Shown here piece after piece: positions 13,541-53,572 of a stretch of DNA of 64,000 nt. The position numbers and the translations under genes are program-made. Positions within the stretch are counted from its first letter, which is position 1. The number at the start of each line of letters is the position of its first letter. The stretch is from Cytobacillus sp. NCCP-133 (lineage in GTDB: Bacteria; Bacillota; Bacilli; Bacillales; Cytobacillaceae). The DNA lies in contig NZ_BRVM01000006.1 of the NCBI RefSeq assembly GCF_026011715.1, positions 101,955 to 165,954 of the forward strand, written 5' to 3'. A model generated the notes under the pieces. It saw only the letters and a program-made list of their open reading frames with translations. It ran no database searches and was not told the origin of the DNA.

Positions 13541-13620
13541 TTATTATCGGCGATTTTTTCGTTTTATCGGCGAACCCTCTCTTTTATGAGCGAAAATCCA
13601 AATTTATCAGCGAAATTGCT
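13541..13620 (+). repeat. Orphan tandem array, four units of exactly 20 bases (GCGA type)
   Basis: The core octamers ATCGGCGA (13546), ATCGGCGA (13566), ATGAGCGA (13586) and ATCAGCGA (13606) recur every 20 bases, each preceded by T-rich sequence and followed by A/T. The unit matches the array near 24.8 kb beside a NERD-domain gene, but no NERD gene is adjacent here. Confidence 0.85.
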
Positions 13621-13687
13621 TTTCGGGTAAAAAAACCAGCATGGACCGACTGCCCAAACTGGTTTAAGAACTACTTAATCTTCACTT

Positions 13688-14073
13688 TCACATCTCCCTC
13701 AATCCAGGAAGAAAAGAAGGATAATTCCAATTTATTGGATTTTCATAACCGGCCTGCTCTTTTGCTGGAATGGAGATGCCGATTTTTTGTTTATTCCCAT
13801 CTTCCCGGTACGATGAGGAGATACCTTCATATATATCTTTTCCATTAGCATCCTTCACACTATTAAAAATAAAGTAATTGAATTCTTCGTTTGTATCAAG
13901 AGTATACATCAGCAGATCATCTTCCCAATTCACTTTTGAAAGCCTTCCTGATACTCAAAGATTTTCTTGCTGTTATTCGGATCATAGGCAACCTGGACGG
14001 CAACCCCGAGCGGGTAGACTGTTATATTCTTTATGGTCATTTTCTGCCCTTTAATGGTTACCGTCTCATTCAT
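13688..14073 (-). pseudogene. Frameshifted C-terminal fragment of a DUF5643/DUF4179-like protein
   Basis: Two minus-strand frames join into one protein. The first (14073-13930) reads MNETVTIKGQKMTIKNITVY and onward to YQEGFQK before a stop. One base later the second frame continues NWEDDLLMYTLDTNEEFN and ends GLREM. Together they look like the C-terminal immunoglobulin-like domain found in DUF4179/DUF5643 anti-sigma-like membrane proteins. The N-terminal and transmembrane parts are absent, and the fragment begins right after the antiporter terminator. A single-base deletion near 13932 explains the frame change. Confidence 0.6.
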
Positions 14074-14077
14074 TATA

Positions 14078-14112
14078 AAAATAAAAATAGACCTGTCTTT
14101 AAGGACAGATCC
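14078..14112 (-). terminator. Terminator of the antiporter gene
   Basis: On the minus strand GATCTGTC/GACAGGTC with a six-base loop is followed by TATTTTTATTTTT. It lies 16 bases after the antiporter stop codon. Confidence 0.85.
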
Positions 14113-14127
14113 ATTTTCAAAAGTATG

Positions 14128-50585: not shown

Positions 50586-50724
50586 AACGATTCACTCCTT
50601 CAGTAATCAGCTCTCCTGTAATATCCGAAAAGTTTTTTTATAATTGCCCTTGAATATGCATATTATAGTATGACCTTCTTACTGTTATCCTATAAAATCA
50701 GGAGTGTTTCGTCCAAAAATCTGC

Positions 50725-52224
50725 TCAGTGAAGGCGTTCGTTCACGGATTTTACATATTTGCCCATTGTTGAGGCAGAAATGCCGTATTTGCCGGCAATT
50801 TTTGATTGGGAAATCTTTTCGTTTCGAAGCTTATGCCATACATACTCAATCGCTGCAGCCCATGCCTTTTGGTTTTTTATATTCTGATGCTTGCTTGTTA
50901 ATTCCACAAAGATGGTGAACCACATTAAATACAAGCCAGCCTCTACTGTCCCGATTGGATGAAAGTTTTCATAAAATAGCTCTGCTGTTTCATGGCCAGC
51001 CTGAAGCAGGGCAGGCAATTTCTGCCCTGTTTGCACAAAGGAAAGATACTCCTTTTCCAATGCTGTAAACTTTTCGTTCTGCACAATTGCATCAGAATCC
51101 AGCACATCACTTTTCCTGCTGGAAACAGACGTCAGGTACAACCCGAATAGCCGCTCTTCCATGTAGTCGCTCTCCAGCTTTTTTAAGATGGAAGAATAAT
51201 GATCTTCAAACCCGCTGCTTGTCACTTTTTCATCGTTCCAGGGCTCAGTGCCCGCCTTATCAGGATTGATTTCAACTGCTTTCTTCCATGCTGACTTCGC
51301 CAAATCTTCGCGGCCAGTGAAGTAAGCAGAGTAGGAAAGCCAATAATAGAATGGGCCGTCCCCTTCAAAGCCCTTTTTCTGAAGCTTTCGCAGCCATAAA
51401 AAAGCAGCTTCGTACTCGCCTGTTAAGGCAAAGGTCGCACCAAGCTTGAACTGATGTTCAATCGAAAGCGGCTTTATTTTTTTCAATGCCTCTTTTAACA
51501 ATCGAACCTGCCTGAAGTCGCGCTCATAAAAAGCAAACACAAGCTTATTACATAGTGCATGGAGATTGCCCGGGTTTTCCTCCAGAACCTTCTCCAATAT
51601 ATCGGAAGCCTTTTGAACTTCGCCGAGGTAATAATAAGCCAATGCGAGGTTGTTATACGCAGACCAGTACTGCGGATATTCATCAATAACTGAATTCAGG
51701 ATCTCAACTGCTTTCGGAAAATGGCCGGATTCCAGCAGTTCCCGCGCGTGTTCCTGCTTCGTAATCAAATCATCCTGCTCATACAGCTCTTCATCCAGAT
51801 CTTCCGCCTCAAGCGTCAGCAAATCCAAAAGATCCTCTGTATCTTCCGTAAACTCTCCGTCCCGATCCAAATCGAGATACGTATTTGCATGCTGATAGGC
51901 ATCCTTGAACAGACCCAGGTGAGCATAATTGTTTGCGAGGAAGTAATGGCATTCCACCATATCTTCATCCAGCTCTTCAAGAATCATATGAAGCAGCTGA
52001 TTCGATTCCTGATACTCGCTCATCTCGGAATGGATAATCGCCAGCTGTGCCACAATCATCGGTTCACCCGATTCAAGCTGCATCGCACGCATCAGGTATT
52101 TTTTCGCTTTATGAAAATCCCTGCGGTGGTACGCCTTAATTCCTTTGGAAAAGTAGTACTCACCATTTGGGATAAATGACAATAGTTTTCCCTTTTGGTG
52201 TCTAGCTTTAGAGTCTTTGCTCAT
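50725..52224 (-). CDS. yvcD: TPR-repeat protein YvcD
   Basis: The 499-residue protein is built of TPR helices: FHKAKKYLMRAMQLESGEPM, YWSAYNNLALAYYYLGEVQK and YYWLSYSAYFTGREDLAKSA are clear units. It ends in a small helix-turn-helix-like segment (QSKIAGKYGISASTMGKYVK). It corresponds to B. subtilis YvcD, of unknown function, and keeps its place between trxB and his. The ATG at 52224 has GGAGG before it. Confidence 0.88.
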   Translation of the reverse strand: MSKDSKARHQKGKLLSFIPNGEYYFSKGIKAYHRRDFHKAKKYLMRAMQLESGEPMIVAQLAIIHSEMSEYQESNQLLHMILEELDEDMVECHYFLANNYAHLGLFKDAYQHANTYLDLDRDGEFTEDTEDLLDLLTLEAEDLDEELYEQDDLITKQEHARELLESGHFPKAVEILNSVIDEYPQYWSAYNNLALAYYYLGEVQKASDILEKVLEENPGNLHALCNKLVFAFYERDFRQVRLLKEALKKIKPLSIEHQFKLGATFALTGEYEAAFLWLRKLQKKGFEGDGPFYYWLSYSAYFTGREDLAKSAWKKAVEINPDKAGTEPWNDEKVTSSGFEDHYSSILKKLESDYMEERLFGLYLTSVSSRKSDVLDSDAIVQNEKFTALEKEYLSFVQTGQKLPALLQAGHETAELFYENFHPIGTVEAGLYLMWFTIFVELTSKHQNIKNQKAWAAAIEYVWHKLRNEKISQSKIAGKYGISASTMGKYVKSVNERLH

Positions 52225-52359
52225 GAAATCCTCCATTAATGTTAGTAACTAAAGTAGTATATCATACGAACAAGCCATCGGAGAAGGGTTGAAATCATAA
52301 TAGTATTTCCAGTCTGGGTTTTTTATTGGAAATCTTGATGAGGGAATGTTTTAAAAGGG

Positions 52360-53373
52360 TTATTGCGGTGGTTTAGTGGTGCTGCTGTTTAGATCGGTAA
52401 TATTCTGGTAGTTTGGCGGCGGGTGGTAGCGGCGGCCTTTGTTGGTGCCGGTGTGGGGGATATTGAGGGAATGGAGGAGTTTCACCGTGATGGAACGGGA
52501 AGATAGATTGAAAAAGTCTCGAAAATCCTGATTAGATGCCGGGACATCATTATTTAAAAGAAATAAATCTATTACTGCCTGATAATGGGCATCCCGGTCA
52601 GTTGTTTTACACTTGGGACAATACCACATAGCAAAATGCCGTTTCATAGGTAAGGAATAGCAGGAAGGACAAACAATCCCGGTTTTAATCTCAGAGAAAG
52701 ATATTTTATAGCAAGCCAGGATATCCAAATTTTCAGTCTGATGTTCTTTCGTAATTTGCCGGCATATTCTTCTTAATTCTTTAGTGTCAAATCGCTCATT
52801 ATAAAATTGCCTGAACCTTTGTATTTCACTATTGAGAAATTGAACATGCTTAACTTTTTGAAGAGACCGGGCAAAACTAGGCTCTGTTTTAATAATAGTA
52901 GATGGCTTGCTAATCAAAACGAGGAATTCTATTGGAAGATTTATGTTGCGTTTATTAAACCACTTTCTAAGCTCTTTCATTTGCTGATTAGCCTGCTCAA
53001 TAGGATTGGCGTAGCCCTTTTCTTCACCAGCAGCGTTCCTTTGAATGAGCTGATTGCAAACAGGATCAAAGTACAGAACGCCCGAATAATTTTTCACTTC
53101 CAGGATTAGAGCAAAGCTTGCTGTCAGGATAAGTGAGTCAATTTGAAAATAATACTTGCCGTTCGTAAGCCTAACTCCATGAAAGACGTAGTAATCTTTT
53201 TCCGAAAGCTTGCTTAAATGAAAATCTAAAGACTGTTCCCCTCTATAACCTGCCATTCTTTTAGCCAGATCTGTTTTAATATCCGGTATGTTTGAATTAT
53301 CGGGAGGAAGACGAAGAAGCAAAGCATTATTTTTTAATATTTTTAATGGTAATGTCCGCTTTTTAACAATCAA
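52360..53373 (-). CDS. NERD nuclease-domain protein with zinc ribbon and C-terminal HTH-like region (copy 3)
   Basis: This 337-residue paralog has Glu46 (RGEQS), Asp79 (FQIDSLIL) and Glu92/Lys94 (LEVKN) in the NERD domain. The zinc ribbon is CPSC...WYCPKC (Cys235, 238, 252, 255). The helix-turn-helix-like end is SSRSITVKLLHSLNIPHTGT followed by a basic wing NKGRRY and a polar tail. AGGAG precedes a TTG start. It interrupts the conserved yvcD-his neighbourhood. A six-unit array of TTTATGTGCCAC repeats lies 80-200 bases upstream. Confidence 0.85.
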   Translation of the reverse strand: MIVKKRTLPLKILKNNALLLRLPPDNSNIPDIKTDLAKRMAGYRGEQSLDFHLSKLSEKDYYVFHGVRLTNGKYYFQIDSLILTASFALILEVKNYSGVLYFDPVCNQLIQRNAAGEEKGYANPIEQANQQMKELRKWFNKRNINLPIEFLVLISKPSTIIKTEPSFARSLQKVKHVQFLNSEIQRFRQFYNERFDTKELRRICRQITKEHQTENLDILACYKISFSEIKTGIVCPSCYSLPMKRHFAMWYCPKCKTTDRDAHYQAVIDLFLLNNDVPASNQDFRDFFNLSSRSITVKLLHSLNIPHTGTNKGRRYHPPPNYQNITDLNSSTTKPPQ

Positions 53374-53450
53374 GCTATCACTCCTAATTTAATTTCTGCT
53401 TATTAATTCTGTTTAAAGCGGAAAAAAACCTTTATATTTATTAAGAGAAC

Positions 53451-53572
53451 GATTTATGTGCCATTTTTTCCGATTTATGATCCACTTTCGACCTTTACTG
53501 TGCTACTTTTCGTTTTTATGTATCACTATATGGCGTTTATGTGCCACTTATAAAATATATGTGCCACTCCTT
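53451..53572 (+). repeat. Tandem array of six 20-21-base units (TGTGCCA type) beside NERD copy 3
   Basis: TTTATGTGCCAC-like units have their ATG (or equivalent) at 53456, 53477, 53497, 53518, 53539 and 53559, spacings 21, 20, 21, 21 and 20. Variation is mostly in the last two core bases and the T-rich spacer. The array fills the space between NERD copy 3 and the his terminator. Confidence 0.88.

Follow-up and report, generated by a model that had tools for sequence, protein, structure and literature searches.

The window, meaning the whole 64,000-nucleotide stretch of Cytobacillus sp. NCCP-133 DNA analysed here, carries three genes for NERD-domain nucleases and five direct-repeat arrays, arranged as follows.

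13541..13615, minus strand: solo array, four GCGA units (plus strand) at exactly 20 bp; core TTTCGC(C/T)(G/C)ATAAA
23774..24760, minus strand: NERD nuclease A, 328 aa; NERD domain, Cys4 ribbon, winged helix
24826..24913, minus strand: cognate array A, five GCGA units (plus strand) at exactly 20 bp; core TTTCGCCCATAAA on the minus strand
33439..34428, plus strand: NERD nuclease B, 329 aa; flanked by secG and eno
34411..34507, minus strand: cognate array B, five CCGGCC units (plus strand) at exactly 21 bp; core TTTGGCCGGTAAA on the minus strand
44135..44188, no strand assigned: weak solo array, three TATGTG units at 18-21 bp (TTTATGTG..GGATA); adjoins tRNA-Arg
52360..53373, minus strand: NERD nuclease C, 337 aa; flanked by a hisI-type gene and a TPR gene
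53455..53570, minus strand: cognate array C, six degenerate units at 20-21 bp; core AGTGGCACATAAA on the minus strand

As a preliminary description of this DNA had recognized, the three genes encode paralogues with a NERD domain, a Cys4 ribbon, and a winged helix. In a Pfam profile search, NERD (PF08378) matched nucleases A, B, and C with E-values of 5e-20, 4.7e-20, and 1.3e-20 and scores of 72.5, 72.6, and 74.4 bits (Pfam cut-off 22.1), and it was the only family above its cut-off in these proteins. Each keeps the D...ExK nuclease motif, as FQID and E(V/I)KN, and the two CxxC pairs of the ribbon, and residues D77, E90, and K92 were invariant in the aligned family proteins (58 of 58). An AlphaFold2 model of nuclease B, the one protein modelled, predicted a nuclease-like core and a C-terminal winged helix (pLDDT 94.5; pTM 0.86). 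The nuclease-related domain is shared with SmdA of Staphylococcus, PglW, and MAD6, and a 2022 paper states that, to its authors’ knowledge, no study had addressed what NERD does in bacteria (PMC9040797). Compared with SmdA, PglW, and MAD6, the family here has the Cys4 ribbon, the winged helix, and private arrays, and no kinase or membrane part was seen in it. Identity with BREX PglW or MADS MAD6 was rejected, as scores were 11-25 bits against cut-offs of 460 and 990, with matches confined to residues 44-209 of the 328-337 aa. The AspA-type centromere-binding winged helix (5k5q) is among the closest known systems.

All three genes adjoin an array, as first described, but the arrangement differs among them: array B lies 3’ of its gene, overlaps the last codons, and reads in the opposite direction, whereas arrays A and C lie 5’ of their genes and read in the same direction. 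Five units of array C were found by pattern search and the sixth, a degenerate one, by eye. In plus-strand positions, the repeat units themselves run over 24829-24912 in array A, 34415-34504 in array B, 53457-53567 in array C, 13550-13613 in the 13.5-kb array, and 44138-44182 in the 44.1-kb array. Two further arrays had been reported without a nuclease. The one at 13.5 kb does have four units, with a core nearly identical to that of array A; the one at 44.1 kb has only three, at 18-21 bp, and is perhaps a decayed copy of the array C type. With 500 dinucleotide shuffles of each stretch, the array at 53.5 kb gave p = 0.004 and each of the other four p = 0.002; the stretches had been selected because the preliminary description named them. 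Across the whole window, Tandem Repeats Finder listed the 24.8-, 34.4-, and 44.1-kb arrays and missed those at 13.5 and 53.5 kb, while a chain finder returned the 34.4-, 13.5-, and 24.8-kb arrays and, when relaxed, added the 53.5-kb array and one stretch within a coding frame.

The pairing of nuclease and array is real and general. In the genome itself all six paralogues (6/6) adjoin a 20-21-bp direct-repeat array, two of them only under relaxed settings, and the core sequence differs by locus, bearing out the proposal that each nuclease has its own array. It had also been proposed that arrays should be enriched beside other family members and should not be equally common in genomes lacking them, and both expectations held; the pairing itself extends to relatives of many genera. 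An array of at least four units lay within 500 bp of the gene or overlapped its end in 62 of 80 relatives; the other 18 had no strict array near the gene. A near array was kept in 43 of the 80 under the harshest recount, from which gene-overlapping arrays were removed together with those inside any stop-to-stop frame of at least 100 aa; at least two of the arrays dropped (L076 and L096) resemble coding repeats. Array density in the 80 relatives was 17.75 per 10 kb at up to 250 bp from the gene and 0.13 at 2-6 kb, a more than 100-fold difference, and 145 arrays were counted in 1.64 Mb compared with 0 in one dinucleotide shuffle. Sampled genomes with a family match had 6 arrays in 400 kb and those without had 0 in 400 kb (two-sided p = 0.031). 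In a sister clade, strict arrays were present at 0 of 6 genes, and one relaxed match lay near one of the six.

Of 299 genomes sampled from the order, 218 have the family, which is therefore common biology rather than a curiosity. Its distribution bears on a chromosomal defence role, raised early on, in which the nuclease, retained or marked by the arrays, would cut invading DNA and leave the host unharmed. NERD domains do occur in defence proteins (the family gives weak matches to the MAD6 and PglW kinases), and specificity changes fast. On the other hand, that specificity tracks host arrays, collections of phages, plasmids, and viral contigs contain almost no members of the family, broken gene copies are common and loss is tolerated, and the window genes have ordinary neighbours, such as secG, eno, and hisI, with no apparent defence partner among the ten annotated. 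We saw no support for defence and consider it improbable. Partition or replication control, also suggested initially, found no support either, and no partition ATPase was present among the same ten neighbours, the only genes looked at for this. A third suggestion, that a nuclease marks its insertion sites, is not supported either, two of the loci being common across the genus.

To relate protein residues to core bases, 146 loci were reduced to 125: 13 had open frames shorter than 300 aa and 9 were duplicates, with one locus standing in both lists; 60 of the genus matches were fetched. A core was found for 122 of the 125, of which 106 fell within quality limits set after the tables had been seen, yielding 59 representatives below 60% identity. 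Among these 59, 0 of 1000 permutations reached the observed mean of the winged helix, or that of residues 292-299 within it. Residue 298 (protein A numbering) was Arg with C/T at core position -5 and Lys with G (25:3 vs 3:15; p = 1e-6), and residue 293 was Arg with C at core position -1 (8/12 vs 1/47; p = 1.9e-6); the residue and base groups were chosen post hoc, and multiplication by 3548 tests gives p of about 0.003 and 0.007, respectively. Independent tree contrasts ran as predicted in 10 cases for residue 298 (0 opposite, 3 ties) and in 6 for residue 293 (1 opposite, 2 ties), and both residues lie within the predicted recognition helix of the nuclease B model. Outside the winged helix, too, covariation was raised, with p = 0.004 for the linker mean, 0.005 for the ribbon count, and, more weakly, 0.043 for the NERD-domain mean; shared descent would produce such a rise. 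The best single residue-base pair did not beat the permutation maximum (p = 0.061), the 19 representatives below 45% identity gave nothing significant except one winged-helix count (p = 0.012; recognition helix p = 0.84), and distant protein pairs had no overall protein-core link. Since recognition-helix residues covary with core bases, each protein very probably reads its own array, which backs, at the level of sequence comparison, the earlier proposal that the C-terminal domain binds the repeats.

This covariation fits double-stranded DNA, which weighs against the arrays being expressed as small RNAs with the protein as their RNA partner. Expression as small RNAs was proposed by those who described similar Bacillus repeats (PMC8161180), but the arrays share no common promoter layout, and the five in the window have no unusually stable fold as single-stranded DNA (z -1.3 to +2.1). 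We regard this explanation as highly improbable.

Arrays with the same cores also occur away from the nuclease genes. Further same-core arrays lay elsewhere in the genome, all four cores searched being covered by this result (four of six, with the L003- and L007-type cores left out), and the reversed-pattern control returned 0. Across the genus, searches took strict threefold matches only and so missed diverged arrays; genes counted as cognate at 70% or 75% identity, limits set after seeing the tables. Of 10 genomes that have the cognate gene, in one case broken, 9 contained TGACCG arrays and one lacked a strict array, compared with 8 of 26 containing them where the gene is missing (p = 0.0023); for CCGCAC arrays the counts were 7 of 11 compared with 4 of 25 (p = 0.0076). 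Two of the eight genomes that keep TGACCG arrays without a 70%-identity gene (G001 and G002) have another nuclease with a TGACCG core. In one genome, 14 of 22 array copies have a common left end, and one shared site differs cleanly in unit number (8 vs 1). Dispersal appears to be slow, because at least 16 of the 21 array loci are common to two close genomes; at the sites examined, comparison of two close genomes showed no clean array insertion. Nine of 54 arrays lay within a called ORF, and overlap of arrays with stop-to-stop frames may be chance. Many Bacillus-type bacteria carry several related nucleases, each beside, and apparently reading, its own repeat signal, which is also dispersed elsewhere in the genome.

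The best explanation, to which we assign a probability of roughly 0.55 on the sequence evidence, is a chromosomal enzyme-and-repeat partnership in which each nuclease would bind, disperse, and cut at its own arrays. Binding is its well-supported first step: the recognition helix of each NERD-ribbon-winged-helix protein would contact the units of the array beside its gene, reading the 8-base variable core and then ATAAA, and the unit spacing of two helical turns would align copies cooperatively on one DNA face. Dispersal is supported, if less firmly, with cognate arrays at a few to more than 20 further sites per genome, mostly intergenic, many of them probably copies of one element with a common left end; genomes that lack the enzyme have fewer such arrays or none. 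The third step is tentative: the nuclease domain may cut or nick DNA at the arrays it is bound to or next to them, after which repair could alter unit number and rarely copy the element to a new site. That the enzyme is conserved at shared loci suggests some benefit to the host as well, perhaps at transcription-unit ends, where some of the arrays are located.

A rival explanation is a DNA-organising or regulatory family, with arrays as operators, insulators, or nucleoid sites, a protein that covers these sites, regulates its own gene, and works at transcription-unit ends, and a nuclease fold used only as an occasional nickase, for example in relieving supercoiling. About one third of near arrays lie downstream of the gene (34 of 93 within 500 bp), promoter layouts are again not shared, first units score no better than inner ones (p = 0.60), and the invariant catalytic residues argue that cutting matters. 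We therefore think such a role rather unlikely.

The partnership of nuclease and repeats would resemble REP/REPIN-RAYT pairs (PMC3116915) in its net effect, with a NERD nuclease and direct-repeat arrays replacing a Y1 transposase and hairpins. In both, repeats lie beside an enzyme gene and dispersed in extragenic space, matching the type of the nearby enzyme, and several distinct enzymes per genome each have their own repeat type. The RAYT enzyme, in contrast, is a Y1 (HUH) tyrosine transposase, a family with no match listed up to E 1 in nucleases A, B, and C (Pfam), and it mobilises palindromic, hairpin-forming repeats, whereas here mobilisation is what we infer and the direct repeats at 20-21 bp lack hairpins in the five arrays. 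Without Y1 transposase and hairpins, the system falls outside the REP/RAYT definition despite the resemblance. It is possible, though we hold this with some doubt, that Bacillales chromosomal NERD nucleases underlie a new class of nuclease-driven dispersed repeats that arose independently of REP/RAYT, each spreading and maintaining its own direct-repeat array under a readable recognition-helix code that allows many orthogonal pairs per genome.

The system had been called undescribed, which is true in part. Tandem repeats of 20-21 nt in Bacillus are already in print as enigmatic (Subirana and Messeguer, 2021; PMC8161180), being non-coding, with several families per species and a short conserved signal in each, and the arrays here have the same period, non-coding location, several families per genome, and short conserved signals. 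The accessible part of that paper names no particular partner and contains the word “nuclease” 0 times, whereas in our data every repeat family is accompanied by a nuclease gene, and our literature search found no paper linking 20-21-nt repeats to NERD proteins. The nucleases are thus a candidate protein partner for these repeats, whose function therefore becomes testable; the residue-base code is directly testable too and, if right, would offer many orthogonal DNA-binding modules. TCGCGG, the signal given there for B. weihaiensis, a species outside our sample, is also the core of L048, L049, and L091.

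The pairing of NERD nucleases with repeat arrays, proposed in the preliminary description from three genes of the window, is real and widespread, and we found no earlier description of it. In the genome to which the window belongs (62 contigs, 4.3 Mb), nine NERD matches were identified, and an array was present at every one of the six full-length family members, with six different cores; the arrays at two of these genes (L003 and L007) were detected with relaxed settings only. The remaining three NERD genes had no array within 1.5 kb. A broken NERD gene of a different kind (L008) is found in this genome close to a contig end. 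With the register fixed by ATAAA, the array unit consists of an 8-base variable core followed by ATAAA, exact or slightly altered, and a spacer rich in A/T.

We examined 80 relatives among named Bacillaceae and neighbours. In 62 of them an array with at least four units either overlapped the end of the gene or lay no more than 500 bp from it; 71 of 145 arrays lay within 250 bp of the gene. Excluding gene-overlapping arrays left 59 of the 80 with an array, and further excluding arrays in any stop-to-stop frame of at least 100 aa left 43. Many of the arrays removed look like ordinary arrays whose frame is open by chance, but at L076 and L096 the repeats seem to be part of a coding sequence. Beyond 2 kb from the gene, 14 arrays outside such frames were found in 1241 kb. 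The recount altered the counts and left the overall odds as they were, since neither the covariation described below nor the density contrast depends on it. Some diverged or A+T-rich arrays were visible among the loci of the 18 relatives without a strict array, and were left uncounted because the relaxed search was also positive in 44% of shuffles.

Arrays were most often upstream and read with the gene (57 of 93 well-defined strict arrays); 5 were upstream reading against it, and the downstream arrays read with (18) or against (13) the gene. While 5-6 units are usual, arrays of 14 to 25 units occurred at four loci (L080, L107, L117, L230). Upstream of the nuclease gene at L078, L106, L119 and L075, arrays were arranged as tandem blocks of about 200-450 bp, and the L119 blocks seem to include the first ~25 codons of the gene, as if its 5' end had been repeatedly duplicated.

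The family was present in 35 of 36 genus genomes and in 218 of the 299 searched across the order; in the latter search no more than seven candidates per genome were scored, so that its copy numbers are lower bounds and some apparent absences may be misses. A genome could have as many as eleven copies, and some copies were broken. A 400-kb sample of five genomes lacking a family match contained no arrays, and an equal length taken from eleven genomes that have a match contained six, two of them within a stop-to-stop frame (two-sided p = 0.031). A sister NERD clade of about 300 aa with paired CxxC motifs, found in six genus genomes (L288-L293), has a C-terminus similar to that of the family as judged by eye; none of its six loci had a strict array, and one gave a relaxed match.

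As a class, 20-21-nt tandem repeats are termed enigmatic in PMC8161180, where it is guessed that some protein polymerises on them. The word nuclease is absent from the searched text of that paper and of a previous survey of prokaryotic satellites (PMC6749651), and no paper linking NERD proteins to repeats was found in the open-licence PubMed Central literature. The nearest kind of system is the REPIN system described in PMC3116915.

There is good in-silico evidence that the nuclease protein reads its own array. Using 59 proteins under 60% identity and 1000 permutations, we computed the mutual information that protein columns share with the bases of the core. It peaked in the winged helix (0/1000 permutations as high), where ten column-base pairs exceeded z 3 versus 2.2 in permutations, and the value at residues 292-299 (protein A numbering) was likewise equalled in 0/1000. 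Covariation was also raised outside the winged helix, in the mean for the linker (p = 0.004) and the NERD domain (p = 0.043) and in the count for the ribbon (p = 0.005), and the best single pair did not significantly exceed the permutation maximum (p = 0.061; 59 proteins). Among 19 proteins under 45% identity covariation was gone, save for one winged-helix count (p = 0.012). The contingencies were plain at residue 298, with Arg accompanying C/T at core -5 and Lys accompanying G, and at residue 293, with Arg accompanying C at core -1. Independent contrasts on a tree made without the winged helix gave 10:0 with 3 ties for residue 298 (p = 0.001) and 6:1 with 2 ties for residue 293 (p = 0.06). 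At the hisI-TPR gene locus, common to several species, recognition helices and cores both differ between enzymes, those of other species being 52-65% identical to the window's enzyme; at the secG-eno locus, the recognition helix and TTTGGCCG are both kept in seven enzymes, the window's included.

Pattern searches of the window's genome revealed that the L001, L002, L005 and L006 core types each have extra arrays at a distance from the nuclease genes, and the reversed-pattern control gave no matches there. Across the 36 genus genomes, TGACCG arrays occurred in 9/10 with a cognate orthologue (70% identity or more), one of these orthologues being a fragment only (G017), versus 8/26 without; two of these eight, G001 and G002, carry a different family member whose core is TGACCG. 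CCGCAC arrays occurred in 7/11 genomes with the cognate gene versus 4/25 without. In one genome (G016), 14 of 22 TGACCG arrays had in common a left end that precedes the first unit by about 40 bp of sequence, 11 of the 22 had six units spaced 20,20,20,20,21, and spacers alternated. These arrays look like copies rather than newly evolved arrays. The flanks of at least 16 of 21 G016 array loci match an array locus in G015, and array movement is therefore slow. Unit number varies, with 8 versus 1 unit at one shared site. One intergenic stretch in which G016 and G015 differ carries, in G016, two adjacent arrays of two core types (L188/L189), and a similar adjacent pair occurs in the window's genome (L020/L024).

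Of 54 solo arrays, with copies of both genomes counted, 26 lay between tandem genes, 9 between convergent genes and 2 between divergent genes; a further 9 were inside a called ORF and 8 were without a neighbour. Divergent intergenes were used less than expected (p = 0.099). At 5/8 loci near contig ends (G015, G016) a 5S rRNA gene adjoined the array with the operon terminator between; in these two closely related genomes, TGACCG arrays directly follow a 5S rRNA gene and its terminator at L212, L213, L214, L215 and L231. This adjacency may be due in part to duplication of operon flanks. No Rfam match was found at 20 other array loci. The window itself contains three matches to the Bacillaceae-1 small RNA (RF01690), at 19588-19661, 39531-39598 and 44492-44553.
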